Positions 1-18,028 of a DNA stretch of 64,000 bases are shown piece by piece. The notes under the pieces were generated by a model. It ran no database searches, was not told the origin of the DNA, and saw only the letters and a list, made by a program, of their open reading frames with translations. Position 1 is the first letter of the stretch, and each line of letters starts with the position of its first letter. This DNA comes from Rhodomicrobium sp. R_RK_3. Lineage in GTDB: Bacteria > Pseudomonadota > Alphaproteobacteria > Rhizobiales > Rhodomicrobiaceae. Made by a program: the position numbers and the translations under genes. Location of the stretch: contig NZ_MWLK01000018.1 in NCBI RefSeq assembly GCF_002198715.1, positions 119,623 to 183,622 of the forward strand, in the 5' to 3' direction.

Positions 1-174
1 GCGCTGGCGGCGGCGCGCGGCGCCAACGGCTCCGGCGCGGCGGCGGACGGGCATATCGCGCTCGCCCGGCATTTCGCCGAAACCCAGGCGCCGCAGAACG
101 GCGGCCTGAAGCGTATCGTCTTCAACATGCATGAAACCGTCAACGGCAAGGCGGCCGACGCCGCGCTTGCCTGA
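1..174 (+). CDS. 3' end of an unidentified protein (window edge)
   Basis: An open frame enters at base 1 and stops with TGA at 172-174, giving the last 57 residues of a protein. The visible part is Ala-rich and helical-looking, ending in NGKAADAALA. The ALARHFAE stretch and helical character resemble the C-terminal helix of acyl-CoA dehydrogenase-like proteins, but no diagnostic motif is present, so this is only a guess. It lies 17 bases upstream of the SDR gene on the same strand, so the two could share a transcript. Confidence 0.5.
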   Translation, partial: ALAAARGANGSGAAADGHIALARHFAETQAPQNGGLKRIVFNMHETVNGKAADAALA

Positions 175-191
175 AAGCCAAGCAGGGACGC

Positions 192-1058
192 ATGGACACG
201 CTCAAAGGCAAGACGCTCTTCATCACCGGCGCCAGCCGCGGCATCGGCCTCGCCATCGCCCTGCGCGCCGCCCGCGACGGCGCCAATGTCGCCATCGCCG
301 CCAAGACCGCCGAGCCGCATCCCAAGCTCGAGGGCACCATCTACACCGCCGCCGCCGAGATCGAGGCGGCGGGCGGCAAGGCGCTGCCGCTCGTCTGCGA
401 CATCCGCAATGAGGAGCAGCTTGCCGACGCGGTCGCGAAAACCGCCGCGGCCTTCGGCGGCATCGATATCTGCGTCAACAATGCCAGCGCCATTTCGCTG
501 ACCGGCACGCTGGCGACCGACATGAAGCGCTACGATCTGATGCACCAGATCAACACGCGCGGCACCTTCCTGACCTCGAAACTGTGCATCCCCTATCTCG
601 CCAAGGCGGAGAACCCGCATATCCTGATGCTGTCGCCGCCGCTCGACATGAAGCCGAAATGGTTCGGCCCGCATGTCGCCTATACGATGGCGAAATTCGG
701 CATGAGCATGTGCGTGCTGGGGATGGCGGAGGAATTAAAGCCGCAAGGCATCGCGGTGAACGCGCTGTGGCCGCGCACCACCATCGCCACCGCCGCCGTC
801 AACAATCTGCTCGGCGGCGATATGCTGATGCGCATGAGCCGCAAGCCCGACATCCTGGCCGACGCGGCGCATCTGATCTTCACCCAGCCCTCGCGTGAGT
901 TCACCGGCCGCTTCCTGATCGACGACACGCTGTTGAGCGAATTCGGCGTCACCGATTTCGACCGTTACCGCGTCGACCCGAGCAAGGACCTCGCGCCGGA
1001 TTTCTTCGTCCCCGAGGACAGCGTTCCGCCGGTCAGCCTGAAGGCGCTGACCGCCTAG
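192..1058 (+). CDS. SDR family oxidoreductase (HSDL2-like)
   Basis: A 288-residue short-chain dehydrogenase/reductase. The Rossmann cofactor motif TGASRGIG is at residues 12-19, NNAS at 96-99, Ser148 is in LSPP, and the catalytic Tyr164 and Lys168 are in YTMAK. The long insertion after the second strand (EPHPKLEGTI) and the length resemble the hydroxysteroid-dehydrogenase-like 2 (HSDL2) branch, whose substrate is poorly defined. NAD(P)(H)-dependent alcohol/ketone redox activity is expected from the family; the actual substrate is unknown. It is probably cytosolic, as no signal peptide is seen. The next gene starts about 70 bases downstream on the same strand. Confidence 0.85.
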   Translation: MDTLKGKTLFITGASRGIGLAIALRAARDGANVAIAAKTAEPHPKLEGTIYTAAAEIEAAGGKALPLVCDIRNEEQLADAVAKTAAAFGGIDICVNNASAISLTGTLATDMKRYDLMHQINTRGTFLTSKLCIPYLAKAENPHILMLSPPLDMKPKWFGPHVAYTMAKFGMSMCVLGMAEELKPQGIAVNALWPRTTIATAAVNNLLGGDMLMRMSRKPDILADAAHLIFTQPSREFTGRFLIDDTLLSEFGVTDFDRYRVDPSKDLAPDFFVPEDSVPPVSLKALTA

Positions 1059-1130
1059 CCACCGCCGCGAGCGGGCCGCGTGCCCGCCCTCCGCCTTGCC
1101 GAATCTTGCAAAGCATGGTCACCTAGCCCC

Positions 1131-2066
1131 ATGGCGACACTCTACCTCACCCATCCCTGCCTCGTGGAGCACGACACCGGCCCCGGCCATCCGGAGCGGC
1201 CGGACCGCATCCGCGCGGTCGAAAAAGTGCTCGCCCATGAGACGTTCGACGCGCTCATCCGCGAGGAGGCCCCCGAGGGCGCCGAGGAGGACATCGCGCG
1301 CGTCCATCCGCGTGCCTATATCGAGGCCATCAAGAACGTCGCGCCGGCGCGCGGCCTGGTCTATCTGGACGGCGATACGCCGATGTCGCCCGGCACGCTC
1401 AACGTCATTCTGCACGCCGTGGGCGCGGGCACCCGCGCCGTCGATGCGGTGATGACGGGCGAGGTGCAGAACGCCTTTTGCGGCGTCCGCCCGCCCGGCC
1501 ATCACGCCGAGCCGAGCCGCGCCATGGGCTTCTGCATCTTCAACAGCGCCGCCATCGCCGCCGAATATGCGCGCGCCAAGCACGGCGCCGAGCGCGTCGC
1601 CGTCGTCGATTTCGACGTGCATCACGGCAATGGCACGCAGGCCGCCTTCTGGTCGGAGAAGAACCTGTTCTACGCCTCCAGCCACCAGTCGCCCTTCTAT
1701 CCCGGGACCGGGCGGACGGGGGAGACGGGCGTTGCCGGCAACATCGTCAACGCGCCGCTGCGGGCGGGCGACGGCGGCCGCGAATTCCGCGCCGCCTACA
1801 AGGATCTGATCCTGCCGTCGCTGGTGAATTTCGCGCCCGACCTCTTGATCCTCTCCGCCGGCTTCGACGCCCATCAGGAAGACCCGCTCGCCGAGATCAA
1901 CCTCGTCGAGGAGGATTTTTCCTGGGTCACCTATCAGCTTGCCGAGGTCGCGCAGAAATGGTCGGGCGGGCGCATCGTCTCGATGCTGGAAGGCGGCTAT
2001 AGCCTCAACGGGCTCGCCCGTTCGACTGCCGTGCATGTCGCCGCGCTTATGGATGCCGGGCGCTGA
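1131..2066 (+). CDS. histone deacetylase family / acetylpolyamine amidohydrolase-like protein
   Basis: 311 residues with the arginase-deacetylase fold signature: His124-His125 in RPPGHH, zinc ligands Asp162 and His164 in DFDVHH, the third ligand Asp246 in SAGFDAH, and Tyr290 in EGGYS. All catalytic residues are present. Bacterial members remove acetyl groups from polyamines, acetoin-like compounds or proteins; the substrate cannot be told here. The frame is open upstream to 1080, but ATG 1131 (MATLYLTHP) matches the usual family N-terminus. xseB follows 42 bases downstream. Neighbourhoods of the form HDAC-xseB-dxs are common in Alphaproteobacteria. Confidence 0.9.
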   Translation: MATLYLTHPCLVEHDTGPGHPERPDRIRAVEKVLAHETFDALIREEAPEGAEEDIARVHPRAYIEAIKNVAPARGLVYLDGDTPMSPGTLNVILHAVGAGTRAVDAVMTGEVQNAFCGVRPPGHHAEPSRAMGFCIFNSAAIAAEYARAKHGAERVAVVDFDVHHGNGTQAAFWSEKNLFYASSHQSPFYPGTGRTGETGVAGNIVNAPLRAGDGGREFRAAYKDLILPSLVNFAPDLLILSAGFDAHQEDPLAEINLVEEDFSWVTYQLAEVAQKWSGGRIVSMLEGGYSLNGLARSTAVHVAALMDAGR

Positions 2067-2108
2067 GCGGCGCACCGGCGCCAAGAATAACGCTGAGAAA
2101 GGATTTCC

Positions 2109-2369
2109 ATGGCAAAGCCACCTGCCACTCATGAGGACATTCAGGCGCTGAGTTTCGAGCAGGCGCTTAAGGAGCTAGAAACCATCGTTGGCAAGCTCGA
2201 GCGCGGCGACGTCGAGCTGGAGCCGTCCATTTCGCTCTACGAACGCGGCGAAGCCCTGCGTGCGCATTGCGAACGCCTGCTTCAGCGCATCGAGGCGAAG
2301 GTTGAAAAGATCACCTTGGATGCCCAAGGCGCGCCGAATGGCAGCGTGCCATTGGAAGCCGGACAGTGA
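2109..2369 (+). CDS. xseB: exodeoxyribonuclease VII small subunit
   Basis: 86 residues with the family core: [25 protein letters not shown], then a helix carrying [17 protein letters not shown]. XseB is the small subunit that assembles in several copies on XseA to form exonuclease VII, which cuts single-stranded DNA into oligonucleotides. The GAAAGGA ribosome binding site lies a few bases upstream of ATG 2109. xseA is not in the window, which is normal because the two subunits are often unlinked. An ispA gene often sits between xseB and dxs; it is absent here. Confidence 0.93.
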
Positions 2370-2504
2370 CATTTCGTCTCATAAAAAGGCAATTATGACA
2401 GTGTTACGGCATAATTTCCGTGATTTTGAGGCGAAGATTGGGGTCTAATCACGAGGATATGGCCGACCCCGACCGGGCCGGCTTACTTTTGAGGAGACTG
2501 CCTC
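2370..2504 (+). promoter_or_regulatory. xseB-dxs spacer, probable dxs leader
   Basis: 135 bases that are more AT-rich than the flanking genes, with a CATAAT hexamer at 2410-2415 and the GAGGAG ribosome site just before GTG 2505. No well-spaced -35 hexamer accompanies CATAAT, so a separate dxs promoter is only suggested by composition. No ispA remnant was recognised in it. Confidence 0.25.
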
Positions 2505-4427
2505 GTGACGGTTCCGAGTAAGACACCGCTTCTCGATCAAATCAAAATCCCCTCCGACCTGCGCAAATTTACCGAGAAGGATCTCATTCAAATCGCCGGG
2601 GAGTTGCGGCAGGAGACGATCGACGCCGTGTCGGTGACCGGCGGCCATCTGGGCGCGGGGCTCGGCGTCGTCGAGCTGACCGTCGCGCTGCATTACCTGT
2701 TCGACACGCCGGACGACCGCATCCTCTGGGACGTCGGCCACCAGGCCTATCCGCACAAAATCCTGACCGGCCGCCGCGACCGCATCCGCACGCTGCGTCA
2801 GGGCGGCGGGCTCGCCGGTTTCACCAAGCGCGCCGAAAGCGAGTATGACACGTTCGGCGCGGGCCATTCCTCGACCTCAATTTCGGCCGGGCTCGGCATG
2901 GCCGTGGCGCGCGACCTCGAGGGGCGAAAGAACCACGTCATCGCCGTGATCGGCGACGGCGCCATGAGCGCGGGCATGGCCTATGAGGCGATGAACAATG
3001 CCGGCGCCATGGACAAGCGGCTGATCGTCATCCTCAACGACAACGACATGTCGATCGCCCCGCCGGTCGGCGCGCTGAGCGCTTATCTCGCGCGCATCAA
3101 TTCCAGCCACACCTATCTGGCCATTCGCGATTTCGTGAAGCAGCTCGCCAAGCGCCTGCCCAAGGACTGGGAGCGCCGCGCCGCCCGCGCCGAGGAATAC
3201 ACCCGCAGCTTCTGGGCCGGCGGCGTGTTGTTCGAGGAACTCGGCTTCTATTATGTCGGCCCGGTCGACGGCCATAATCTGGATCATCTGATCCCGGTAC
3301 TGCGCAATGTGCGCGACGCCGATGTCGGGCCGGTGCTGATCCACGTCGTCACCCAGAAGGGCAAGGGCTACGCCCCGGCGGAGAAGTCCCCGGACAAATA
3401 TCACGGGGTCAACAAGTTCAACGTCATCACCGGGGCGCAGGCCGTCGCCAAGCCGAACGCGCCGAGCTACACGAAGGTCTTTGCGCAAAGCCTGATCCAG
3501 GAGGCGCGCAAGGACGACAAGATCGTTGCCGTGACCGCCGCCATGCCCGCGGGCACCGGGCTCGACCTGTTCGGGCGCGAATTCCCCGATCGCTGTTTCG
3601 ATGTCGGCATCGCGGAGCAGCATGGCGTCACCTTCGCCGCAGGCCTTGCGACCGAGGGCTATAAGCCGTTCGCCGCGATCTATTCGACCTTCCTGCAGCG
3701 TGCCTACGATCAGGTCGTGCACGATGTCGCCGTGCAGCATTTGCCGGTGCGCTTCGCCATCGACCGCGCCGGTCTCGTCGGCGCCGACGGGCCGACCCAT
3801 GCCGGCTCCTTCGACGTCGCCTATCTGAGCTGCCTGCCGGGTTTCGTGGTCATGGCCGCCGCCGATGAGGTCGAGTTGCGCCACATGGTGGCGACGGCCG
3901 CCGCCATCGATGACGGCCCGTCCGCCTTCCGCTATCCGCGCGGCGAAGGCTGGGGGCTGGACATGCCCGAGGAAGGCACGCCCCTGGAGATCGGGCGCGG
4001 CCGTATCCTGCGCGAGGGCACGGCGGTGGCGCTGTTATCCTTCGGCGGTCGCCTCGCCGAATGCCTGACCGCCGCCGACCAGCTTTCCGCGCGCGGCCTC
4101 TCGACCACGGTGGCGGACGCCCGCTTCGCCAAGCCGCTCGATGAAGCGCTGATCCGCCAGCTTTGCGCCCATCACGAGGTGGTGGTGAGCATCGAGGAAG
4201 GCTCGACCGGCGGCTTCGGCGCGCAATTGCTGCATTTCCTCTCGGCGGACGGCCTTCTGGACCGCGGCCTGAAGATCCGCACGCTGACCTTGCCCGACCG
4301 CTTCATCGATCAGGACAAGCCGGAGCGCATGTATGAGCAGGCTGGGCTGGACGGAGCGGGAATCGTGCGCAGCGTGTTCTCGGCCCTTTCGCTTTCGCCA
4401 AGGGCCGAGGCCGATTTCAACGCCTGA
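2505..4427 (+). CDS. dxs: 1-deoxy-D-xylulose-5-phosphate synthase
   Basis: 640 residues, the normal length. DXS joins pyruvate and glyceraldehyde 3-phosphate to make DXP, the first step of the MEP isoprenoid pathway, which also supplies thiamine and pyridoxal synthesis. Visible features are GGHLG (46-50, with the N-terminal active-site His), the thiamine diphosphate motif GDGA (150-153) through NDN (178-180), and the DVGIAEQHG segment with the catalytic Glu near residue 370. The C-terminal transketolase domain is complete. Translation starts at GTG 2505, preceded by a clear GAGGAG site. The gene converges on the SET-domain gene, with only 13 bases between stops. Confidence 0.97.
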
Positions 4428-4440
4428 TGCGGCGGGGGAC

Positions 4441-4866
4441 TCAGCTTTGGCCGGCGATATGGCCGTTTTGCTGCGTCCCTGAATAGGTCGTGTTGAAGGC
4501 CCCGGCAAAGCTCGGGTCGAATTCGTAATAATTGCAGGTGATCTCCTCACCGGCGGCAATATCGCGAATGGCGTAGCCTTGGCTGAACTCGGTGAAATCC
4601 GTGTTCGGCTGCTCCGTATGGTTCATGAACCGGCCATTATCCAACTCGATCACGAGATGGTTGCCGTTCTCGACATGGGGAAATGAATATTTTTCGACGA
4701 ACTCCCTGGTATGGGGCGGGAGCTCTTCTATATCGCTAGGCGAGAAGCTCGCAATGAATTTCGGGTTGAATTGCCAGATCAGCGTGCCCGAAGGGATGAA
4801 CTCATCTGCGTAGACGCCCAAGCCTTCAATCTGGCTGGGAGCAACATACGTGCGGACAAGCATCAT
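4441..4866 (-). CDS. SET domain-containing protein (short)
   Basis: 141 residues, essentially a minimal SET fold. It begins with the SET-N-like IEGLGVYADEFIPSGTLIW, has the cofactor and pseudoknot motif RFMNHTEQPN (79-88) with the characteristic Asn-His, and ends with GEEITCNYYEF (106-116). SET domains transfer methyl groups from S-adenosylmethionine to lysines; the target in this bacterium is unknown. There is no cysteine-rich post-SET segment, unlike its neighbour. Local GC is visibly lower than in flanking genes, suggesting a different history. Start chosen at the first of two ATG codons (4866, 4863), with AGGA upstream. Confidence 0.85.
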   Translation of the reverse strand: MMLVRTYVAPSQIEGLGVYADEFIPSGTLIWQFNPKFIASFSPSDIEELPPHTREFVEKYSFPHVENGNHLVIELDNGRFMNHTEQPNTDFTEFSQGYAIRDIAAGEEITCNYYEFDPSFAGAFNTTYSGTQQNGHIAGQS

Positions 4867-5197
4867 TTTCTACTGATTCCTCATATGGGTTCGGGGTTGG
4901 GTCGCGGTAATTTCACGTGCATCAGCACTTCAAGCTCTCAATATTTCCATGCGCGATATAAAGGGCGAACCCATCACGCGACATCAGTAGTTTTGCTGCA
5001 AAAACGCTCATAGATTCAATACTCGACTGCGGTTCACTCAGATTCCGCTGAGTTTCATGCTGCGGAGACTGAGATTCCGACGGCCAGCGGTCGGCCGACC
5101 GTCAAAAGTGGTCACCGTTATGCCGTATAAACGCGTATGTAAAGCGAAAAAACAACTGTCGGCTTTTTTTGACGGATGGGCCGGCCGGCCGCACCCG
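4867..5197. other. intergenic region between the two SET-domain genes
   Basis: About 330 bases without a convincing gene. It is AT-richer than its surroundings and holds short homopolymer runs (seven T at 5164-5170, six A near 5149) and a perfect palindrome GGTCGGCCGACC near 5090-5101. The right end is the hairpin annotated at 5170-5200. The upstream signals of the 4441-4866 gene must lie here, but no clear promoter is visible. Confidence 0.5.
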
Positions 5198-5200
5198 TCA
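5170..5200 (-). repeat. hairpin embedding the stop codon of a SET-domain gene
   Basis: An imperfect inverted repeat of about 31 bases with a GGCCGGCCGGCC core. On the minus strand it begins with the TGA stop of the 5198-5767 gene and closes with CCGTCA. A run of seven T flanks it on the plus strand, so on the minus (coding) strand the stem is followed by A, not U. It is therefore not a standard intrinsic terminator for the gene whose end it covers, although it could protect the 3' end. Confidence 0.5.
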
Positions 5201-5767
5201 GCGCCGCCGCAGCCGGTCGATCCGCCGCTGCAGGTAGGGCGAGAAAAACCCATGATAACGGTCCCATAGCGCGGGATCGCGCCAGTCATTGCCGGTGATC
5301 CGGCCCCGGCAATTGCGCGCTCCGCAACTGCAGAAAAACTCGTCATAGGACGAGCCGTCCGCCATGGCGTAATCGAAGGTGATTTCTTCGCCCGGCAGGA
5401 TGTTGCGCATCGCCACCAGCGAGATCTGGCCGGAGAGCCCGGTATTGGGCTCGCAGCAATGGTTGACATAGTCCGGCGGCTCGCCGGCGTCGAAGGAAGT
5501 GAGGTACAGCCCCTCCTCGACCTGCACGGTGTAGGTCTTCAGGATCGCCGACAGGAAGGGCAACTCCTCCCAGGAGACGATGCGTCCGCTCCAGACGCCG
5601 ATGAGTTCGCCCGCCGGGATCGGCTCGCGCGCGATGACGGCATGACCGCCCTTGGCGGTGGCGCCGACGACGTAGCATTTAGGGGACAAATAGGAGAATG
5701 AGCGCTGCGCTAAGGCAGGCTCGGCCAACTCGGATTGCATCGATGATTCACCGAAGGAAAGCAGCAA
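5198..5767 (-). CDS. SET domain protein with post-SET cysteine cluster
   Basis: Up to 189 residues; an alternative ATG at 5740 gives 180. SET motifs are VNHCCEPN (101-108), holding the Asn-His pair, and GEEITFDYAMAD (126-137), followed by a post-SET cluster CSCGARNCRG (Cys146, 148, 153). In eukaryotic-type lysine methyltransferases this cluster binds zinc together with a cysteine in the SET core, here probably Cys104 or Cys105. All elements for an active methyltransferase appear present; the substrate is unknown. It is only moderately similar to the adjacent short SET protein, so a recent tandem duplication is unlikely. Confidence 0.88.
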   Translation of the reverse strand: MLLSFGESSMQSELAEPALAQRSFSYLSPKCYVVGATAKGGHAVIAREPIPAGELIGVWSGRIVSWEELPFLSAILKTYTVQVEEGLYLTSFDAGEPPDYVNHCCEPNTGLSGQISLVAMRNILPGEEITFDYAMADGSSYDEFFCSCGARNCRGRITGNDWRDPALWDRYHGFFSPYLQRRIDRLRRR

Positions 5768-6151
5768 TTCGTTGTGGTTGGGATTATGTCACCCACGCGG
5801 GGAGCGTGGGCGCGCGAGGCGGAAATCAAAGATCAGCACCGCAATTTCGACGACCGGCATTGGGCCGACAATCGATGGCGTGATCCAAAAAAGGTAAAAC
5901 TCTGCCAGGCGCCCTGACGCCAGATAAGCCGCCAGTGACTATGCCGGTCTTTCGGTTTCATTCGGTCCGGACCAAGCCGCTTTCGCGTTGTGGCATGATC
6001 GTGCGTGCCTCCAGGGCGCGGCGAAAACTTCGCTAAACTCATGCATTAACACAGAAGCGCAGCAGAGGCGATTACGAAAAATCGGCCTGCGGAACTTACC
6101 CATAAGCAAATGGCGAGCACCGGCAACGGTTTTGGCACGGCGCCCGCTGCG
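5768..6151. other. intergenic region with a small hairpin
   Basis: About 380 bases with no supported gene. A perfect 7-bp stem CCCACGC/GCGTGGG with a five-base loop lies at 5792-5810, 25-52 bases upstream of the SET gene start depending on which ATG is used. The rest has stops in every frame apart from a 69-codon frame (5833-6042, minus) of unconvincing composition. The 3' end of csaA transcripts also falls in this region. Confidence 0.4.
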
Positions 6152-6508
6152 TCAAAACAGCTTGCCGCCATTGGGGACGGCGAGACTCGGCCCGATCAGC
6201 ACGACGCCGCCCTCCTCGTCGGGAAAGCCGAGCGTGAGCACTTCGGAGAGGAATTTGCCGATCTGGCGCGGCGGGAAATTGACCACCGCCGCGACCTGCC
6301 GGCCTTTCAGCGTATCCGGTGCGTAATGCCTGGTGATCTGGGCCGAGCTTTTCTTGACGCCGATCTCCGGCCCGAAATCGATCCAGATCTTGATCGCGGG
6401 TTTGCGCGCTTCGGGAAAGGCCTGCGCGTCGACAATTGTGCCGACACGGATATCCACGGCCTCGAAATCGGCAAAGCTGATGGTGCCGCGCGGCTCTGTT
6501 TCGGTCAT
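6152..6508 (-). CDS. csaA: tRNA-binding protein, CsaA family
   Basis: 118 residues forming a stand-alone tRNA-binding (EMAP/Arc1p-type OB-fold) domain: SFADFEAVDIRVGTIV at the N-terminus, KPAIKIWIDFG, KKSSAQIT and the C-terminal NGGKLF. CsaA proteins bind tRNA as dimers and have been linked to chaperone-like export functions in Bacillus. The frame is open upstream, but ATG 6508 gives the standard N-terminus. It lies 22 bases after the stop of the TetR-type gene on the same strand, so the two are probably cotranscribed. Confidence 0.92.
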   Translation of the reverse strand: MTETEPRGTISFADFEAVDIRVGTIVDAQAFPEARKPAIKIWIDFGPEIGVKKSSAQITRHYAPDTLKGRQVAAVVNFPPRQIGKFLSEVLTLGFPDEEGGVVLIGPSLAVPNGGKLF

Positions 6509-6530
6509 GCTCGGGCTCTGTTGTCCGTGG

Positions 6531-7256
6531 CTAGAGGGCAGGCGCTGGACCGGGTTCGCCGCCGCCCGGCGTGTGCCCGTTGGGTGATGGGGCGGGGGCG
6601 GCCGCAGTCTCGGGCGCGCCGGCCGAGGCGCGCTCGCGCCGGGACGGGACGATGCTGTTGAACATCCGCTTCGCCGCCGCGCCGATGTCGTCGGTGCGCT
6701 GCATGACGCGCTCGCCGCGCCGCAGGCGGCTGTCGAGGGCCGCCATGGTGCGGGCAAGGCCGGGATCGGTGTCTTCCAGCCAGATGTCGAAGACGCGGGC
6801 ATAAATGCCCATGATACCCGGCAGCCGCAGCGCGCCGCGCGTGCCTTCGGCGTCGATGCCGGCGGCGGCCAGCATCCAGTAGAGCGAGCGGGCCGCGACC
6901 CCGAACTGCGCGAGGCTTTCGCCGGGCCGGTATTGCAGATCGTCTTTAATGCGGGCGAGGCCTGCCTTATGCGGCGCCATCAGCTCGAAGCGGGTCATCA
7001 GCACGTCGAACAGCCGGTCGCGCGGGGCAAGGGCCGCATCGGCGGGGCTGATCTTGGCCAGCACGGCGTCATCGATGCTGCGCGTATAGGCGGCCAGAAT
7101 ATGCGCCTTGGAAGAGAATTCCTTGCGGAACTGGGCGAGGCCGACGCCGGCTTCGTTGGCGATCTGGTCGAGGCTCAGCCCGTCCCAGCCTTTGCTGGCG
7201 GCAAGGCGCAAGGCTGCGTCGACGATCTTTCCCCTGATGCTCGTGAGGTCCAGCAT
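6531..7256 (-). CDS. TetR-type / COQ9-like transcriptional regulator
   Basis: 241 residues. The N-terminal 50 form a TetR helix-turn-helix (IVDAALRLAASKGWDGLSLDQIANEAGVG, then the LAQFRKEFSSK recognition region). The following helical domain resembles COQ9/RpsU-linked regulators of Alphaproteobacteria. The last 40 residues are Pro/Ala/Gly-rich and probably disordered. The frame extends to 7301, but ATG 7256 has a GGGAG site and starts directly before the HTH. It is cotranscribed with csaA; ligand and target genes are unknown. If COQ9-like in fold, a lipid or quinone ligand is possible, but nothing here proves it. Confidence 0.8.
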   Translation of the reverse strand: MLDLTSIRGKIVDAALRLAASKGWDGLSLDQIANEAGVGLAQFRKEFSSKAHILAAYTRSIDDAVLAKISPADAALAPRDRLFDVLMTRFELMAPHKAGLARIKDDLQYRPGESLAQFGVAARSLYWMLAAAGIDAEGTRGALRLPGIMGIYARVFDIWLEDTDPGLARTMAALDSRLRRGERVMQRTDDIGAAAKRMFNSIVPSRRERASAGAPETAAAPAPSPNGHTPGGGEPGPAPAL

Positions 7257-7339
7257 GGCTTGGCTCCCGTGATCCCGCGGTTCAGGCTCGGCCGCTCCCA
7301 AGGGGGCGGTCCGTCACCATCACTTAATGGCTTCGGGGT

Positions 7340-7906
7340 TCAACTTAAAGGCCGAAATGGGCCGAGTTCGCGGTGGTGGCCGAGCTTGTTCACCAGCGCT
7401 TCGAGGCGGCGGTCGAAAATCCCGCATTCGCGTAAGTGCCGCACCGTGTTTACCACATAATCGATATTGATGCCGGAGCGGCCGCGCCCCTGACGCACCA
7501 GCCGCGCCTGGACTTCGAGCGGCAGGTCGCCCGCATATTGCCGGTGATGGCGGTTGACCATGTAGCAAAGCGCGCGGACGTCCTCGCCGTCCCTGGCGGT
7601 CAGGAGGATGCTGCGATTGACGGCGCGGTAGACATTGTTGGCTTGCTCGCGCCGGCGCAGATAGGCGAGCGTCGCGCGGATATCACGATCGGCGACGCGG
7701 TAGGCGATGCCTTCGCAGCGGCCGCCCGCATCGAGGCCGAGCACCAGCCCCGGAACCGCTTTCGTGCCGCGATGCACATGCGAGTAGATGCACAGAGCCC
7801 GGTGGCCGCCGGGGAAAATGGCGTGCTGGCGCTCCTCATAGGGAAAACCCGGCCGCCACATCAGCGAGCCGTAGCCGAACACCCAGAGGCCGCCGCCCGC
7901 GCTCAC
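7340..7906 (-). CDS. chaC: gamma-glutamylcyclotransferase, ChaC-like
   Basis: 188 residues. The ChaC signature VFGYGSLMW (9-17) is followed by RGTKAVPGLVLGLD and the YLRRREQANNVY region, which carries the likely catalytic Glu. ChaC enzymes split glutathione to 5-oxoproline and Cys-Gly. The start is GTG 7906, whose bases overlap the tyrC stop in a GTGA arrangement; a GAGAAG stretch inside the end of tyrC can serve as ribosome site. The long upstream open frame is tyrC read in another frame and is not part of this protein. It is the last gene of hisC-tyrC-chaC. Confidence 0.9.
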   Translation of the reverse strand: MSAGGGLWVFGYGSLMWRPGFPYEERQHAIFPGGHRALCIYSHVHRGTKAVPGLVLGLDAGGRCEGIAYRVADRDIRATLAYLRRREQANNVYRAVNRSILLTARDGEDVRALCYMVNRHHRQYAGDLPLEVQARLVRQGRGRSGINIDYVVNTVRHLRECGIFDRRLEALVNKLGHHRELGPFRPLS

Positions 7907-8850
7907 GCCGATTTTTTCTTCTCGGCCGTCGCGCCATGCGGACGCCCGAAATCCGGGGCCGGCGTTTCCTGGCCGGCCTCGATGATGGCCCGCCGGATCG
8001 CCCGCGTCTTGGTGAACAGGTCGAACAGCGCATCGCCGTCGCCCCAGCGGATGGCGCGCTGCAGGGCGGCGAGGTCTTCGTTGAAGCGGCCCAGCATCTC
8101 CAGCACGGCTTCCTTGTTGTTGAGGAAGATGTCGCGCCACATGGTGGGGTCGGAGGCGGCGATGCGGGTGAAATCGCGGAAGCCGCTGGCCGAGAATTTG
8201 ACGACTTCCTTCTCCGTCACCTTCTCCAGATCGGAGGCCGTGCCGACGATATTGTAGGCGATCAGATGCGGCACGTGGCTGGTTATGGCGAGCACGAGGT
8301 CATGATGCTCGGCCGTCATGATCTCGACCGAGGCGCCGCAAGCCTCCCAGAAGCGCTTCAGCCTGGCGACGGGTTCCGGCTCGGCGCCGGGCAGCGGCGT
8401 CAGGATGCACCAGCGGCCGTCGAACAATTCGGCAAAGCCGGATTCGGGGCCGGAATGTTCCGTGCCCGCGATCGGGTGGCCGGGAATGAAATGCACGCCC
8501 TCGGGAATATGCGGGCCGATGTCGCGCACGGCGGCGGTCTTCACCGAGCCGGCGTCGGAGATGATGGCGCCGGGCTTCAGCGCCGGGCGGATCGCCTCGG
8601 CGACCGGCCCGAAAGCGCCGACCGGCGTGCAGATGATGACGAGATCGGCGCCAGCCACGGCTTCCGCCGGGTCGGCATAGACGGCGTCGCACAGCTTGAT
8701 GCGCTCGGCGATTTTGCGCGTCTCTTCCGAGCGCGCCGCGCCGGTGATGCGCTTGGCGAGGCCGCCGCGCCGGATCGCATGGCTGATCGAGGAGCCGATC
8801 AGGCCGAGGCCGATCAGCGCGACATGGTCGAAATGTGGGCCCGGCATCAA
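7903..8850 (-). CDS. tyrC: prephenate/arogenate dehydrogenase
   Basis: 315 residues. N-terminal NAD(P)-binding motif GLGLIG (14-19), then [22 protein letters not shown] (substrate-binding His) and the helical C-terminal domain with [12 protein letters not shown] and [12 protein letters not shown]. It oxidatively decarboxylates prephenate and/or arogenate in tyrosine synthesis. There is no fused chorismate mutase or ACT domain. The start overlaps the hisC stop by 4 bases (ATGA) and its stop overlaps the chaC start, so all three genes are probably translationally coupled. Confidence 0.94.
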
Positions 8851-9953
8851 TGCCCGCCTTTCATGAAATCGCTGAGCGCCGCGACGACGGCGCGGTTATG
8901 ATCCTCGAGCCCGACCGTCAGGCGGATGCCCTGCGGAATGCCGTAAGCTTCGAGCCGCCGCGTAATGATGCGGCGGCCGCCCAGGAAGGCGTCGGCATCG
9001 GCGGCGGTCTTGCCGGGCGTATCGGCGAAATGCAGCAGCAGGAAATTCGCCGCGCTGTCGGTGACGGGAATGCCGAGCGCCCGGATCTCCTTCGCCAGCC
9101 ATTCCAGCCATTCGCTATTATGCGCCTTCGAGCGCTCGATATGCGCGCGGTCGTCCAGCGCGGCAATGGCGGCGGACATGCTGGGCCCGGCGAGATTGAA
9201 GGGCCCGCGAATCCGGTTCAGCGCGGAGGCGATTTCGGCGGGGCAGTAGACCCAGCCGACGCGCGCGCTCGCCAGCCCGAAGATCTTCGAAAAGGTCCGC
9301 GTCATCACGGTGTTCGGCGTGGTCGCGACCAGCTCGATGCCCGCTTCGTAATCATTGCGGTTCACATATTCCGCATAGGCGCCGTCGAGCACCAGCAGCA
9401 CGTTGTCGGGCAGGCCCTTGCGCAGGCGGCGGATCTCGCCGAAGGCGACATAGGTGCCGGTCGGGTTGTTCGGATTGGCGATGAAGACGGCGCGCGTGCG
9501 CGGCGTGACCGCCGCCAGGATCGCATCTACATTGGCGCAGAAATCCGTCTCCGGCACGACGACCGGCGTTGCTCCCGCCGCCAGGATGACGATCTTGTAG
9601 ACCAGAAATCCGTGCTCGGTGTAGATCGCCTCGTCGCCGGTCGCGAGATAGGCCTGGGCCAGCAGGTGGAACAGCTCGTCCGAGCCCGCGCCGCAGACCA
9701 GATGATCTGGGTTCAAGCCGTAAAACGTGCCGAGCGCCTGACGCAGCGCCGTCGCCGAGCCGTCCGGATAGCGGTCGAGCTGGCCGGCGGCCTCGCGAAA
9801 TGCCGCGACCGCCGCCGGGCTCGCACCGAACGGCGTCTCGTTGGAGGACAGTTTTATGACCGGCCCGGCGCCAGGGAGCTTGCTGCGCCCCGGCACATAG
9901 GCGTCGATCTCGAATACACCCGGCCGCGCTTGCGGCCCTTGCGCCAGAGACAC
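8847..9953 (-). CDS. hisC: histidinol-phosphate / aromatic aminotransferase
   Basis: 368 residues, class I/II PLP aminotransferase. SNETPFG (37-43), [16 protein letters not shown] and the PLP lysine Lys223 in TFSKIFGLA are all present. HisC makes histidinol phosphate from imidazole acetol phosphate. In Alphaproteobacteria the copy linked to tyrC often also acts on aromatic keto acids, so the adjacency suggests a dual role. GTG start at 9953 with a strong AAGGAGAGGG site upstream. First gene of the hisC-tyrC-chaC operon, divergent from metX. Confidence 0.94.
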
Positions 9954-10186
9954 GTCCCTCTCCTTAAATCTTTTGCCGCGGGGCTCACCCTAACATGGCC
10001 CGCAGCAGCCGGAACTCATAGGATCGGATGGCGTCGAATGCAAAGAAAAGATTGACTTTAGCTGCCGACACCCTAGCTAACCATCAAAGCGCTGCCCCAA
10101 TTTCGTGCAGCCTTCGCGCGCGCCCGGCCCCCCGCGCGAAAATCCTGTGGTGGTGGCCGGGTCGGCTGAGGGAGGCTCCATAGCAT
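9954..10186. promoter_or_regulatory. divergent control region, hisC / metX
   Basis: 233 bases between divergent genes, so it must hold both promoters. A TTGACT hexamer lies at about 10052-10057. The metX-proximal part is very GC-rich with clustered CGCGCG, GGCCGG and GGCTGAGG segments that could fold. I looked for a SAM-II type pseudoknot, common before metX/metA in this class, and could not draw one with confidence. Confidence 0.35.
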
Positions 10187-11356
10187 ATGGCGCAGGCGTC
10201 GACGGCGCAGTGTGATATTGCGCATTTCTCCGAGGATGAACCGCTTCCCCTGGATAGCGGCGCTATGCTCGCGCCTTATTCCATCGCCTATCAGACCTAC
10301 GGCACGCTGAACGCGGACAAATCCAACGCGGTCGTGGTCTGCCACGCGCTGACCGGCGATCAATATGTCGTCGGCACGCATCCCGTCACCGGCAAACCCG
10401 GCTGGTGGGCGACCATGGTCGGCCCCGGCAAGCCGGTCGATACGGACCGCTATTTCGTCATCTGCCCGAACATCATCGGCGGCTGCATGGGCTCGACAGG
10501 GCCGGCTTCGCTCAATCCGCGCACCAACAGGGTCTATGGGCTGGATTTCCCGGTCATCACCATCCGCGACATGGTGCGCGCGCAGGCGCGTTTGATCGAG
10601 CGGCTCGGCATTGACAGCCTGTTCTGCGTCATCGGCGGCTCGATGGGCGGCATGCAGGTGCTGGAATGGGCGGCGAGCTACGGCGACAAGGTGTTTTGCG
10701 CCGTGCCGATCGCCTCCGCCCCCCGCCACTCCTCGCAGAACATCGCCTTCCACGAGGTCGGCCGGCAGGCCGTGATGGCCGATCCGGACTGGCGCGGCGG
10801 CCGCTATCTCGACGAGGGCGTGTTGCCCCGCAAGGGCCTGTCGGTCGCGCGCATGGCCGCGCATATCACCTATCTGTCCTCCAAGGCGCTGCACGAGAAA
10901 TTCGGCCGCAAGCTGCAGGACCGCGAGACGCTGACCTTCGGCTTCGACGCCGATTTCCAGGTGGAGAGCTATCTGCGCTACCAGGGCTCGACCTTCGTCG
11001 ACCGCTTTGACGCCAATTCCTATTTATACATCACCCGCGCCATGGATTATTTCGACCTCGCCGCCGACCACGGCGGCACGCTGGCCAATGCCTTTGCCGA
11101 CATCAAGACGCGCTTCTGCGTGATTTCCTTCACCAGCGATTGGCTCTATCCGACCCGCGACAGCCGCGAGATCGTGCGGGCGCTGAATTCCGTCGCCGCC
11201 AATGTCAGCTTCGTCGAGATCGAATCCGACAAGGGGCACGATGCCTTCCTGCTGGACGAGCCGGAATTGTTCGGCACCGTCTCGGGCTTCCTGAACGCCG
11301 CAGCCGCGCGCCGCGGCATCGCGCCCGCGCCGGCGCGCATCCTGGCGAGCGCCTAA
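10187..11356 (+). CDS. metX: homoserine O-acyltransferase
   Basis: 389 residues, alpha/beta-hydrolase fold of the MetX family. The nucleophile Ser152 is in GGSMGG, HALTGD (53-58) contributes the oxyanion region, the acid Asp is in SDWLYPT and the catalytic His is in DKGHDAF near the C-terminus. It acylates homoserine (acetyl-CoA for most alphaproteobacterial members, although some use succinyl-CoA), opening methionine synthesis by direct sulfhydrylation. ATG 10187 is preceded by GAGGGAGG. metW follows after 2 bases, a very conserved pair. Confidence 0.95.
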
Positions 11357-11358
11357 CC

Positions 11359-12000
11359 TTGCGCGCGCTGAACACTATCCCGCTGGTCCCGGCCCGCGTC
11401 GACCATTTGCTGATCGCGGAGATGGTGACGCGGGGCGCCCGCGTGCTCGACATCGGCTGCGGCGACGGCGAACTGTTGTCGCTGCTGGAGGTCAATCGCG
11501 ACGTCGACGGGCGCGGCATCGAGCTGAGCCAGTCGAACGTGAATCTGTGCGTGGCGCGCGGCCTGTCCGTGATCCAAGGCGACGCCGACCGTGATCTGGT
11601 GCATTTCCCGGATAAGAGCTTCGACTACGCCATCCTAAGCCAAACCTTGCAGGCGACACGGCATCCGCGCCACGTGCTGGAGCAGCTTCTCCGGATCGGG
11701 CGGCACGCGATCGTGTCGTTCCCCAATTTCGGCCATTGGCGCATCCGGCTGCAATTTCTCATGCATGGCCGGATGCCGGTGACGCCGAACCTGCCCGAAT
11801 CCTGGCACGAGACCCAGAACATCCACTATTGCACGATCAAGGATTTTCTGGCGCTGTCCGAGGCCGTCGACGCCAAGGTCGAGCGGACCGTGGCGCTGAA
11901 CGCCTATGGCAAGCGCATGGGCCTGAACCTGCCGCTCGCCTGGCACAATCTGATCGGCGAGCAGGCGGTGTTTTTGCTGACGCGGAACGGCACGGAGTAG
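11359..12000 (+). CDS. metW: methionine biosynthesis protein MetW
   Basis: About 213 residues. The SAM-dependent methyltransferase-like motif VLDIGCGDGELL lies near the N-terminus; FDYAILSQTLQATRHP and SFPNFGHWRIRLQ are signature blocks of MetW. The protein always accompanies MetX in this class and is needed with it for homoserine acylation. No ATG suits the conserved start: TTG 11359, two bases after the metX TAA, keeps the PARVDHLLIAEMV segment, so I chose it. The next ATG (11419) would remove the conserved beginning. Convergent with the membrane gene downstream. Confidence 0.9.
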   Translation: MRALNTIPLVPARVDHLLIAEMVTRGARVLDIGCGDGELLSLLEVNRDVDGRGIELSQSNVNLCVARGLSVIQGDADRDLVHFPDKSFDYAILSQTLQATRHPRHVLEQLLRIGRHAIVSFPNFGHWRIRLQFLMHGRMPVTPNLPESWHETQNIHYCTIKDFLALSEAVDAKVERTVALNAYGKRMGLNLPLAWHNLIGEQAVFLLTRNGTE

Positions 12001-12042
12001 CGCGCCGGCAACCAGCTTTTCGACGAACCTCTCCTCCTCGTC

Positions 12043-12074
12043 GTCCCGGACACCGCGAAGCGGTGAGCCGGGAC
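12043..12074. repeat. REP-like palindrome in the metW 3' region
   Basis: A near-perfect stem-loop: GTCCCGG (12043-12049) pairs with CCGGGAC (12068-12074), and inside it CACCGC (12051-12056) pairs with GCGGTG (12060-12065) around a GAA loop. No T-run follows, so it is more like a dispersed palindromic element than an intrinsic terminator. It lies between convergent genes and may still stabilise either mRNA. Confidence 0.6.
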
Positions 12075-12165
12075 CAAATCATCGATCCGCGGGCACTGCG
12101 GGAAAGAGGTGAGGCGAGTAGGCCCCGGCTCTGACGGCCGGGGCGGCGGAGGATTTGACCCCTGC

Positions 12166-12606
12166 TTAAGCCCGCTTCGCGCCGACGAAATGGTGCAGAT
12201 AGCGGACATGGATCATCACATCCATGATGCTGGCGAAGAACAGGATCACGAAAACCGAGGTCCAGGCCAGCGGCACGAAGAACAGCTCGATGCTGGTGAC
12301 GACCAGCAAGAGGATCGAGCCATAGAGGTCATATTGGCTGCCGGTGAAATTGCGCTCGACGCCGTAGCGCACCATGCGGCCCATCTCCAGATAGAGCGCC
12401 ACCAGGATGCCGAAAGTGATGATGGCGCCATAGGTGATGACGAATGCCGGCCCGCTCGCGCCGATCAGGCTGCCGAGGTCGAGCACATACAGGCTCTCAT
12501 GCAGAAAAGCTTCGTTGGCGCCGGTCGCGACCGGGCCGCCATTATAGAGATGCAGGCCGGCAATGATGTGGTAGAGCAGCCACGCGCCCATGAGCCATGT
12601 GAACAT
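12166..12606 (-). CDS. conserved-looking integral membrane protein, unknown function
   Basis: 146 residues with about four hydrophobic segments: MGAWLLYHIIAGLHLY, AFVITYGAIITFGILVALYL, ILLLVVTSIELFFVPLAW and VFVILFFASIMDVMI. No catalytic motif is seen. ATG 12606 was chosen over the longer open frame because AGGGGAA lies upstream and the first helix begins at once. I do not recognise a family; a small inner-membrane protein with both ends in the cytoplasm is the simplest reading. Confidence 0.7.
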   Translation of the reverse strand: MFTWLMGAWLLYHIIAGLHLYNGGPVATGANEAFLHESLYVLDLGSLIGASGPAFVITYGAIITFGILVALYLEMGRMVRYGVERNFTGSQYDLYGSILLLVVTSIELFFVPLAWTSVFVILFFASIMDVMIHVRYLHHFVGAKRA

Positions 12607-12727
12607 CGAAATTCCCCTGCGCCAAAAAACTGATGCCGAGCTTTTTGCTGTTCGGCGGAAAGCGCAAGGCGTGAAACTGGGGCGCCCGGAGCTATCTACA
12701 ATTTTCTTCAAAGGGCGCGGACATGGC

Positions 12728-12753
12728 AAAACCGCCAGCGAGGGCTGGCGGTT
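12728..12753 (-). terminator. intrinsic terminator downstream of the 12780-13340 gene
   Basis: ACCGCCAGC and GCTGGCGGT form a 9-bp perfect stem with a four-base loop. Read on the minus strand the stem is followed by TTTT, 27 bases after the stop of the single-helix membrane protein gene. Confidence 0.75.
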
Positions 12754-12779
12754 TGTTGATTCGTCGGGAGCCTGAGCGC

Positions 12780-13340
12780 CTAGCGCAGTCCGAGGCTGGA
12801 CATCAGGCTGTCGCTCTGGCGGCTGCCATAGCGCTTCAAGTCGCGGATGAAGCGGCGGCGCTTGCCCGAGGTCGACAGGTCGATGTCGCGGAGCCAGCGC
12901 GGCGGGTTGCTCCAGTCGAAATTCGCCATCAGACGGCGCTTGTTGACATTGGCGTCGGGCAGCCAGTCGCTGCTGGACGAGAAGAAGTCGGAGATCGAGC
13001 GGCGCGACGGTGCGTTGTCGTAGAACCAGCTTTTGGCGCGCGAGCCGGTTTCCTCGGCGGTGTCGCGCAGATCCGGCCAGATGCCTTGCCAGCGGTTATT
13101 GGCCTGGGAGAGCAGGCGGTCATGCCAGGGACGGTGCCGCTCTTGGGCGGCTGCCGCGCGGGCGACGACGAGAAGCGCAAAGCCAGCCAGCGCGATGGGC
13201 AGCCAGGGGCTGATACGGCCGCTCGATTGCTGGCGCGGACGGCGCGCGACGGAGTTGGTGCCGGCACTGTTGGTCGAGTTGGCGCGGTTGCCGGAACCGG
13301 AATATCGAGGTTCGTTAACGGATTTTGGCGTGGGCTTCAT
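12780..13340 (-). CDS. uncharacterised single-pass membrane protein
   Basis: 186 residues. A polar, Ser/Asn/Arg-rich N-terminus of about 40 residues is followed by one hydrophobic segment (ISPWLPIALAGFALLVVARA), then a basic, Trp/Arg-rich C-terminal part with WFYDNAPSRRSISDFF and DWSNPPRWLRDIDL. No known domain recognised. ATG 13340 follows an excellent GGAGGTAAGA site. A hairpin terminator follows the gene, and pnp ends about 175 bases upstream with its own terminator, so this is a separate transcription unit. Confidence 0.72.
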   Translation of the reverse strand: MKPTPKSVNEPRYSGSGNRANSTNSAGTNSVARRPRQQSSGRISPWLPIALAGFALLVVARAAAAQERHRPWHDRLLSQANNRWQGIWPDLRDTAEETGSRAKSWFYDNAPSRRSISDFFSSSSDWLPDANVNKRRLMANFDWSNPPRWLRDIDLSTSGKRRRFIRDLKRYGSRQSDSLMSSLGLR

Positions 13341-13433
13341 TCTTACCTCCGATGGGGGACGCGGATTGGCGCGCGGGGATCTCGGTAGGATAATTCGTAG
13401 CGCTCCCGGCAGTTCCATCGGGCGGCACAATGC

Positions 13434-13464
13434 AAAAAAGCGCCGGGCGATGCCGCGGCGCTTT
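13434..13464 (-). terminator. intrinsic terminator of the rpsO-pnp unit
   Basis: On the minus strand GCGCCG pairs with CGGCGC, extended by A-T pairs, and is followed by six T. It lies about 50 bases after the pnp stop. This closes the long rimP...pnp transcription unit. Confidence 0.8.
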
Positions 13465-13515
13465 CTAATCTTGCAGAAATCTTTGGCCGGCCTCCCTGGG
13501 GAGAGGCCGTCAGGC

Positions 13516-15651
<2,136 letters not shown>

Positions 15652-15917
15652 TCTTCAAATTCCGATAGTTCGTCTCAAGCGCTGGATTGCGCTGGGAGTT
15701 TGTTTCATTCGCTATTTAGCGCGCATAGCCTTAGCCGAATTTGTCGCCGGAGAATAGTGTTGACTGTGTCTTTCCGCAGCTACCCTCAGGAAAGTGACGA
15801 GGCGGCCCGGCTTAAGCCCCTTGCTTTGCTCTTGTTTCAGCGCCAACGACAATAGCCGCGGCGGCCGACAAACGCAGCCACCACGGCGATAAGTACGATT
15901 ACAGAGGACGGGCGAGC
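15652..15917 (-). promoter_or_regulatory. rpsO-pnp spacer / pnp leader
   Basis: 266 bases without a gene. On the minus strand the half next to pnp has complementary segments such as CCAGCGC/GCGCTTG and CGCGCTAAATAGCG that can form stem-loops. In Escherichia coli the equivalent leader is cut by RNase III and lets PNPase control its own mRNA; a similar role here is inferred from position only. Confidence 0.4.
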
Positions 15918-16187
15918 CTAGCGGCGGATGCCGAGACGGCCGATCAGGTCCCGATAGCGCTTTTCGTCCTTCGACTTCACATAGTCGAGCAGACGGCGGC
16001 GGGTGGAGACCATCTTCAGAAGACCCCGGCGCGAATGGTTGTCGCCCTTGTGGGTCTTGAAATGTTCGGTCAGCGTGACGATCCGGTCGGTCAGAATGGC
16101 GACCTGCACCTCGGGCGAGCCTGTATCGCCGGCCTTGGTGGCATATTCGGAAATGAGCGTTTGCTTGCGCTCAGGCGTAATCGACAT
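15918..16187 (-). CDS. rpsO: 30S ribosomal protein S15
   Basis: 89 residues, the standard length. The core [34 protein letters not shown] is intact. S15 binds the central 16S rRNA domain early in 30S assembly. ATG 16187 follows GAGGAG; the longer open frame to 16202 is not needed. It sits 31 bases after truB, the classic order truB-rpsO-pnp. Confidence 0.97.
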
Positions 16188-16218
16188 CGGGAATCTCCTC
16201 AAATCGGATGAGGTTCCA

Positions 16219-17142
16219 TCAGAGCGGGATGTTGAAAACCCGTGAGGGCCGCAACTCTCCCTGTTCGACCTCGCCGAGCGCGATCAGCGTTCCGCGCGAG
16301 GTGGCATAGATGAGACCAGTGTGGATGGGGGCGTCCCTTCCGCGAAGGATGATGGGCTTGCCCCGCTTCAATTGCGCCGCGTCCGATCCGTTGACAGCCA
16401 GGGCCGGGATGCCGTCCAGCGCGGTTTCAACGGGCAGAAGCGCTCCAAGGAGCGCCTCGCGGCCGGCCTCACTATTGCTCAATTCGAATAGCCGTTCCAG
16501 CGAAATTGCGCGTGCCTGCGGGAATGGCCCGACGCGGGTGCGGCGAAGCTGCGCGACATGGCCGAAGCAGCCGAGCTGACGGCCCAGGTCGCGGGCGATG
16601 GAGCGGACATAGGTGCCCTTGCCGCATTCGGCCTCGAAGACGCACGCATCTGGCGAGGGCATCTCGGCGATTTCGAGCCGTGTGACTTCGACGACGCGCG
16701 GCTGCAATTCGAACTCCTCGCCGTCGCGGGCGAGGTCATAGGCGCGCTCGCCCTCGATCTTGATGGCGGAGAAGCGCGGCGGCGTCTGCATGATGCTGCC
16801 GCGAAAGGCCGGCAGCGCCGCTTCGATGGCCTCGCGGCCCGGGCGCTCGGCGCTGTCGCGCGAAGGCTCGCCTTCGGCGTCGTCGGTCGTCGTCTCAACG
16901 CCCCAGCGCACCAGGAAGCGGTACTCCTTGGCGCTGTCGACCACATGCGGGATGGTTTTCGTCGCTTCGCCGAAAGCGATGGGAAGGATGCCTGTCGCGA
17001 GCGGATCGAGCGTGCCAGCGTGGCCCGCCTTGTCGGCGTTGAAGAGGCGCTTCACCTTGTTCAGAGCATGGGTCGAAGTGATCGATTGCGGCTTGTCCAG
17101 GACCAGCCAGCCATGAACGGGTGTGCCTTTGCGACGGCGCAT
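16219..17142 (-). CDS. truB: tRNA pseudouridine(55) synthase
   Basis: 307 residues. The N-terminal [13 protein letters not shown], the catalytic Asp in [18 protein letters not shown], the [15 protein letters not shown] strand, and [12 protein letters not shown] are all present; the C-terminal PUA-like part ([19 protein letters not shown]) closes the protein. TruB makes pseudouridine 55 in the T-loop of tRNAs. ATG 17142 has a CGGAG site. Follows rbfA with a 23-base gap. Confidence 0.96.
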
Positions 17143-17165
17143 GAAACGCTCCGAGAGTGGGGAGT

Positions 17166-17552
17166 TCAGTCCAGATCGCGGCTGACGTCCGGCGAGCGCA
17201 GGATGGCGTCGATCCGCGCGGCTTCGTCGAATGTCTCATCGATCTGAAACGACAAGCTCGGCATGTATTTCAGATCGACCCGCTTGGCAAGCTCGCCGCG
17301 CAGGAATCGCTGGTTGCGGGCGAGCGCGTCCTTCAGCGCCTTGGTGTCGCCGCCGCCGAAGGGCAGGGCGAAGATGGTGGCATTGCGCAGGTCCGGGCTG
17401 ACGCGCACTTCGGTGACGGTGACCTTGGCGCCCTGCAATTCCGGATCCGCGATGCCGGAGCGCCAGAGGATGTCGGCGAAGGCGTGCCGGATCATCTCGC
17501 CGACGCGGAGCTGGCGCTGCGACGGGCCTTTTACGCCTTGCTGTTTCGACAT
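17166..17552 (-). CDS. rbfA: 30S ribosome-binding factor RbfA
   Basis: 128 residues from ATG 17552 (an upstream ATG at 17582 would add ten). The KH-like core QRQLRVGEMIRHAFADIL, VTVTEVRVSPDLRNATIFALP and KYMPSLSFQIDETFDEA match the family. RbfA assists late 16S rRNA maturation and cold adaptation. GGGGATGAG precedes the chosen ATG. It precedes truB and is separated from infB by a small membrane protein gene. Confidence 0.93.
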   Translation of the reverse strand: MSKQQGVKGPSQRQLRVGEMIRHAFADILWRSGIADPELQGAKVTVTEVRVSPDLRNATIFALPFGGGDTKALKDALARNQRFLRGELAKRVDLKYMPSLSFQIDETFDEAARIDAILRSPDVSRDLD

Positions 17553-17612
17553 CTCATCCCCGCTTGAAAAAGAAGCGGCCATTTAGCCGGTCCGGACCGG
17601 CGGTGCAATCGT

Positions 17613-18008
17613 TCAATTCAACACGCCCATCCGCGACGCATAGGCCGCAAAGGCAAAGGCTGCGGTGCTGAGCACGGCCGCGGTCCAGGTCTTGGTCCAG
17701 TGCGCGTCGCCGGCAGGAGCTTGTGGCGTGGTCAGCAGCCAGGCCGCACCGTAATAGAGCGCCTGCACGGCGAGGCCGCCGCCAAGTAGCCAGACGGCCA
17801 AGCCGCTCCTCGCCAGAAGGGCAAGGCCCGCCGCGCCGTACAACATCGCCGAAGCCGCCATGAAGGCGAGGCGGCCATGGTCCGTTTCCGGCTCCTTGGC
17901 CAGCGACTTGACCGCGCGGTCGAACAGCCATTCGAGCCGCGCGCGCCGCAGCACCATGACGGCCGACAGCAGATAGAAAGCGCCGAGCACCGTGGCGATG
18001 AAGACCAT
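17613..18008 (-). CDS. small multi-pass membrane protein inside the infB-rbfA run
   Basis: 131 residues with four hydrophobic stretches: FIATVLGAFYLLSAVMVL, LAFMAASAMLYGAAGLALLA, LAVWLLGGGLAVQALYYGAAWLL and TWTAAVLSTAAFAFAAYA. No family recognised and no catalytic motif. It is 20 bases downstream of infB and 60 bases upstream of rbfA, on the same strand, with no terminator between. Most genomes have infB and rbfA adjacent, so this gene is an insertion into a conserved translation operon. Its codon usage looks like that of its neighbours. Confidence 0.75.
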   Translation of the reverse strand: MVFIATVLGAFYLLSAVMVLRRARLEWLFDRAVKSLAKEPETDHGRLAFMAASAMLYGAAGLALLARSGLAVWLLGGGLAVQALYYGAAWLLTTPQAPAGDAHWTKTWTAAVLSTAAFAFAAYASRMGVLN

Positions 18009-18028
18009 CGAGGGCCGTCAAACGCCCG

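Follow-up and report, generated by a model that had tools for sequence, protein, structure and literature searches.

The SET gene pair beside dxs

The window (the whole stretch analysed, 64,000 nucleotides from Rhodomicrobium sp. R_RK_3) contains two SET-domain genes in its first part, both on the minus strand. SET-S (positions 4441 to 4866) encodes a minimal SET-domain protein of 141 aa with no post-SET segment, assigned by Pfam and by family alignments A2, A4 and A6, and SET-L (5198 to 5740) encodes a protein of 180 aa with a post-SET segment, starting at the ATG at 5740 (a TTG in the same frame lies upstream at 5767). Both ORFs are intact and passed the PF00856 gathering cut-off of 22.4 bits, with 48.6 bits (E = 1.2e-12) and 50.5 bits (E = 3.2e-13), respectively, and Pfam gave no extra domains in either protein. 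They are also the only two SET matches (E <= 0.001) in the source genome, the assembly of which is 99.49% complete in 39 contigs. The genes are separated by 331 nt (4867 to 5197), a longer gap than the 6-129 nt seen in other co-directional pairs. In the region 4400-6160 there were no promoter-like sites, and the two terminator-like sites were not informative (2.0 in shuffles). The convergent neighbour is dxs (2505 to 4427, plus strand; TIGR00204, 810 bits), which according to synteny marks one end of an old dxs-tlyA insertion site. It is preceded by a histone-deacetylase-like gene (1131-2066; no NCBIfam model matched this label) and xseB (2109-2427), an order that is also present in genomes without the pair.

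SET-L carries N93-H94 (codons at 5459 to 5464, minus strand), GEEITFDY and the post-SET cysteine cluster CSCGARNCRG (5303 to 5332, minus strand; C137, C139 and C144), and SET-S carries N82-H83 (4618 to 4623, minus strand) and GEEITCNY, with the post-SET cysteines absent. N93-H94 and Y124 were invariant across the 39 SET-L rows of alignment A5, as were N82-H83 and Y113 across the 20 SET-S rows of A6; in the wider SET-S alignment (A4, 32 rows) N82 was invariant, with H83 and Y113 found in at least 90%. Four cysteines of SET-L, namely that of NHxC (C96) and the three of CxC....C (C137, C139, C144), were likewise invariant in A5 and form a putative zinc site. Both proteins look like active methyltransferases, since N-H and Tyr are conserved in both and the four Cys are invariant in SET-L. 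The AlphaFold2 model of SET-L was of high quality (pLDDT 92.8, pTM 0.85) and has a SET fold, and that of SET-S was unusable (pLDDT 54.5; shallow alignment of 20 rows).

A sequence-only reading of this DNA had described two dissimilar SET families on one strand, one minimal and the other with the post-SET motif, both retaining Asn-His and GEEIT-Y; Pfam and the translations bear out this description, and the motifs proved to be conserved in the family alignments. Its observation that the short gene lies below its surroundings in GC also holds, as SET-S (GC 0.535) has the lowest GC3 (0.697) among the 64 predicted window genes of at least 100 aa (mean 0.836, sd 0.035), and the adjoining gap is low as well. 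The GC of the gap (0.514) is not unusual by itself, because intergenic stretches of at least 100 nt in the window average 0.589. SET-L is ordinary in composition (GC 0.637, GC3 0.829).

Occurrence and arrangement of the two genes

The distribution of both genes was determined in 397 genomes of the order by a Pfam SET search followed by family profiles at E <= 1e-15. Pfam SET was matched in 77 genomes, with at least two matches in 28, and 19 of these 28 had two SET genes within about 1 kb (in G058, two lie about 3.3 kb apart). The SET-L profile matched 21 genomes and the SET-S profile 34. Seventeen of the 21 contained SET-L proper (defined as E <= 1e-77), the remaining four being a distant relative (G138, 8e-44) and other SET proteins (G058, G069 and G379, about 1e-18). 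SET-S directly adjoined SET-L proper in 16 of the 17 genomes (exception G232), compared to an expectation by chance of 1.5 (17 x 34/397), a figure to be read with the relatedness of these genomes (families f1, f2, f31 and f39). Of the 34 genomes with SET-S, 18 had no SET-L proper, and the dependence is therefore one-way.

A scan of 84,980 named species (one genome each), with 14 SET-L rows as query, produced at least 548 relatives. The best 80 loci of these were used and were sorted by title, and by place in the tree for those included in it, which gave 24 loci of Hyphomicrobiales type and 56 others. Since several of the former come from genomes also present in the order survey, the two surveys overlap. 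Among these best 80 of at least 548 loci, SET-S lay beside SET-L in 22 of the 24 Hyphomicrobiales-type loci, the exceptions being L108, which had no SET-S, and L099, where the sequence ends about 200 nt downstream. The 56 other loci were mostly from Chloroflexi (Anaerolineae), apart from one gammaproteobacterial, one planctomycete and two unplaced proteobacterial MAG loci, and SET-S was found in none of them (SET-S scores reached 39.5 bits at most; about 6 kb on both sides was covered at 36 loci). SET-L thus occurs by itself in Anaerolineae and also in Methyloligella GL2 (L108, G232), and SET-S is accordingly not always needed.

Arrangements were counted in 43 loci (16 picked for having pairs, together with L068-L094, with L095-L147 left out), 38 of which hold the pair (28 distinct after removal of copies). 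The 28 distinct pairs consisted of 13 with SET-L followed by SET-S, 14 convergent and 1 with SET-S followed by SET-L, and the gaps between the genes across the 38 loci were 6-387 nt. Adjacency has survived these gene rearrangements, so the two genes probably work together. The genomes with SET-S and no SET-L would fit two unrelated SET genes that merely adjoin by chance, but the adjacency in all but one SET-L genome, in three arrangements, and the frequency with which multi-SET genomes of the order have two such genes within about 1 kb make that explanation extremely improbable. The superfamily itself is known; no description of such a SET-L/SET-S pair was found in the literature, as covered by open-licence papers.

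Age and origin of the pair

In a midpoint-rooted tree of 81 rows, SET-L and SET-S fell on opposite sides of one branch (99/94). The window SET-L was placed in an 11-row Hyphomicrobiales clade (98/93) situated among Anaerolineae branches, and the closest SET-L relatives outside the order, among the best 80 of at least 548 loci, were mostly Anaerolineae lacking SET-S. The nested position of the clade indicates an old inter-phylum transfer, in either direction given the midpoint root. Within the order, SET-L split into the window sequence with the Methyloligella/Methyloceanibacter types (97/80) and Hyphomicrobium with family f39 (99/99), and SET-S into the window sequence with families f1, f31, f24, f35 and a Bradyrhizobium plasmid copy (98/97) and Hyphomicrobium with f39 and the second copy of G007 (96/84). 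The trees of the two partners divide into the same two lines. Their distance matrices were correlated with r = 0.92 (none of 5000 permutations was as high), a value that is partly expected because the species history is shared.

The sequence-only reading had placed the genes in the region after dxs where tlyA often lies, and this was confirmed by genome G002, of the same family as the source and with no SET gene, in which dxs and tlyA adjoin. The two genes are also close in G008 and G045, the SET pairs of which are located elsewhere. The inserted state was found in another family, in G037 (order dxs, a 162-aa gene, SET-S, SET-L, tlyA, RlmD-like), and dxs, SET-L and tlyA occurred in one stretch at 8 named loci (among the best 80 of at least 548). 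In the source genome dxs stays with the pair, with tlyA and the RlmD-like gene on contig C15, and in G003-G006 and G007 only SET-S has remained with tlyA. These arrangements are most simply explained by a single ancient dxs-tlyA insertion that sister lines then broke up in different ways; the state of G002 may be ancestral or the result of a clean loss.

The earlier suggestion of an acquired module is correct as to the interruption of dxs-tlyA, but the occurrence of this insertion in another family shows that it is old. Recent acquisition of an effector module, possibly directed at a host, would agree with the low GC3 of SET-S and with the position of SET-L among Anaerolineae, according to which it crossed phyla at some time. 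Against this, the pair is common to several families, with the same dxs-tlyA site in two, in G003-G007, which belong to the same family, SET-S has a similarly low GC (0.54-0.56), and mobile-element marks were absent (no tRNA in window positions 1-20000, no flanking repeats at 4300-6300). Neither effector nor PADLOC models scored above cut-off, and the host target proposed by the sequence-only reading found no backing: there was no secreted-effector signal, and the sole effector model, NF043024 (AnkI/LegAS4), gave 11.8 and 10.6 bits against the two proteins (cut-off 550). That reading had held that grouping with broadly distributed families and an even composition would speak against acquisition; both proteins do belong to bacterial families that extend across several families of the order, but the composition of SET-S is indeed different. 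Overall, recent acquisition as an effector module appears very improbable, and an old pair of the order is preferred.

Other assignments were considered. For anti-phage defence no PADLOC-DB family was matched at E <= 0.01, and for a prophage origin no PHROG at E <= 1. SET-S gave seven distant phage matches (six Synechococcus phages and one uncultured; E 1e-6 to 2e-11), and SET-L gave none. A link to methylotrophy was considered because many carriers are Hyphomicrobium or Methyloceanibacter, but the formaldehyde-activating enzyme (PF08714) was present in 3 of 13 genomes and absent from the carriers G000 and G045, which gives no link to this marker.

Catalysis, substrate and known SET proteins

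SET methyltransferases are best known from animals and plants, and bacterial SET proteins are usually treated as effectors or as stray genes of eukaryotic origin. Here, free-living bacteria have a co-inherited pair, one member of which is common to Chloroflexi, and this offers a defined two-gene target for work on the role of chromosomal bacterial SET enzymes. We consider it probable that SET-L and SET-S are catalytically complete SAM-dependent methyltransferases, constituting an old co-inherited pair of the order and serving one endogenous substrate or pathway. Acting on this substrate or in this pathway, they would either perform two successive methylations or constitute one two-chain enzyme. 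Catalysis would fall mainly to SET-L, closed by the putative post-SET zinc site, with SET-S as a partner also able to exist alone.

On more than one occasion tandem SET genes arose within the class, and this gives ground for a two-chain or two-step reading. A SET match was found in 68 of 385 genomes in a survey of the class, and tandem SET genes outside the order in three (G473 and G757 of f129; G526 of f182), all of other SET types than the SET-L/SET-S pair. SET-S with a third SET type was found in two genomes of f16 (G022, G306), and two SET-S in G007. No SET-L/SET-S fusion was seen in 12 stretches of other orders in which SET frames are long or in tandem. That the bacterial SETs of the class in general are two-chain or two-step enzymes, with SET-L and SET-S as one methyltransferase or relay for an endogenous amine, is a speculative and rather unlikely extension; if true, the tandem SETs of other make-up in the class would answer the same need in parallel ways. 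The pair in any case lets one ask whether SET domains work in heteromeric pairs outside eukaryotes.

Some further SET gene contexts were observed. The tandem SETs of G473 and G757 (L167, L168) score with the SET-S profile, yet a post-SET cysteine cluster is present in them. Fusions with a HAD hydrolase and with a D-Ala-D-Ala-ligase-like domain occur among SET proteins at a greater distance and count as further hints of a small-molecule substrate. On a Paraburkholderia phenoliruptrix plasmid (L149:3941-5485) a SET-HAD hydrolase fusion has an aminotransferase gene and a DMT transporter gene as neighbours, and in G058 (L044:4339-8393) a run of four same-strand genes consists of one for a SET protein, two for ATP-grasp proteins resembling D-Ala-D-Ala ligase and one for an ATP-grasp-SET fusion.

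Regarding the substrate, the tentative proposal is a small metabolite that is either basic or sulfur-containing (an amino acid or a polyamine); on indirect evidence, a small amine or amino acid was ranked slightly ahead of a protein lysine. The SET enzyme BurB is reported to methylate free methionine to S-methylmethionine (PMC12542666). Among the 56 non-Hyphomicrobiales loci (from the best 80 of at least 548), nine had polyamine-type ABC permease genes by SET-L, a context seen outside the order of the window and not within it; the permease models were matched below their cut-offs and the ATPase model potA above, and seven of the nine loci share one gene order and may therefore reflect one event. 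A class I methyltransferase gene was located directly upstream of SET-L in 8 of the same 56 loci. On a Leptospira interrogans plasmid (NZ_CP043881, L148:3959-4825), an AdoMet decarboxylase domain is joined to a SET-L homologue (tblastn E 1e-9; SET match of 20.1 bits, under the Pfam cut-off) in a gene located between speD and speE; this homologue no longer has N-H or the post-SET cysteines.

Alternatively, the pair may methylate lysine residues in a bacterial protein, such as a ribosomal or nucleoid one, the two enzymes differing in site or in degree of methylation, which we regard as a serious though not favoured possibility. The profiles of SET-L (A5) and SET-S match lysine methyltransferases best in the PDB (KMT2A, E 1.7e-19 and 3.1e-14, respectively), and ASH1L was placed first for the SET-L model by both Foldseek and VIA-align (Z 14.2). 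This ranking is, however, biased, because the PDB is rich in eukaryotic lysine methyltransferases and poor in other SET enzymes, and BurB is in the same list (E 5.4e-14 with SET-L). The rRNA methyltransferase genes that flank both main sites (RsmB at 12 loci that have the pair, and TlyA/RlmD in the other line) could indicate a ribosomal target, but these neighbours were noticed after the fact, and by eye SET-S-only loci had no rRNA methyltransferase neighbours except beside tlyA in f1.

With Chlamydia NUE and Legionella RomA/LegAS4 the pair shares the presence of a SET domain in a bacterium, but it differs from LegAS4/AnkI in scoring far below the cut-off of NF043024 and in having no extra domains in SET-S or SET-L. 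SET-S resembles the viral vSET (PDB 1n3j) in being a SET domain of less than 145 aa without a post-SET segment, and its profile matches vSET over nearly the full length (E 2.1e-8), yet KMT2A scores higher; to our knowledge, vSET has no gene partner. ASH1L and KMT2A, the best PDB matches of SET-L, share with it the SET core, N-H, GEEIT-Y and the post-SET CxC....C, but SET-L is shorter, has no AWS/pre-SET region or chromatin domains, and has its closest relatives in bacteria. BurB of Burkholderia thailandensis (PDB 9l4t, 9l4v) is a stand-alone bacterial SET protein of 172 aa, near SET-L in size, with a sequence match of E 6e-8 over residues 90-151 and a fold match of Z 12.3 (rmsd 3.4, 134 aligned), although SET-L scores higher with the histone enzymes by sequence and fold. 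The loop after NHxxxPN was 24 residues long in 38 of 41 SET-L rows (three were unmatched by the pattern); in 32 SET-S rows it was 23, 24, 26 or 29 residues, a variation that makes its length uninformative for SET-S. By its spacing after NHxxxPN, SET-L is nearer to BurB: in the aligned spans, both are without 6-8 residues that are present in the histone enzymes between NHxxxPN and GEE.
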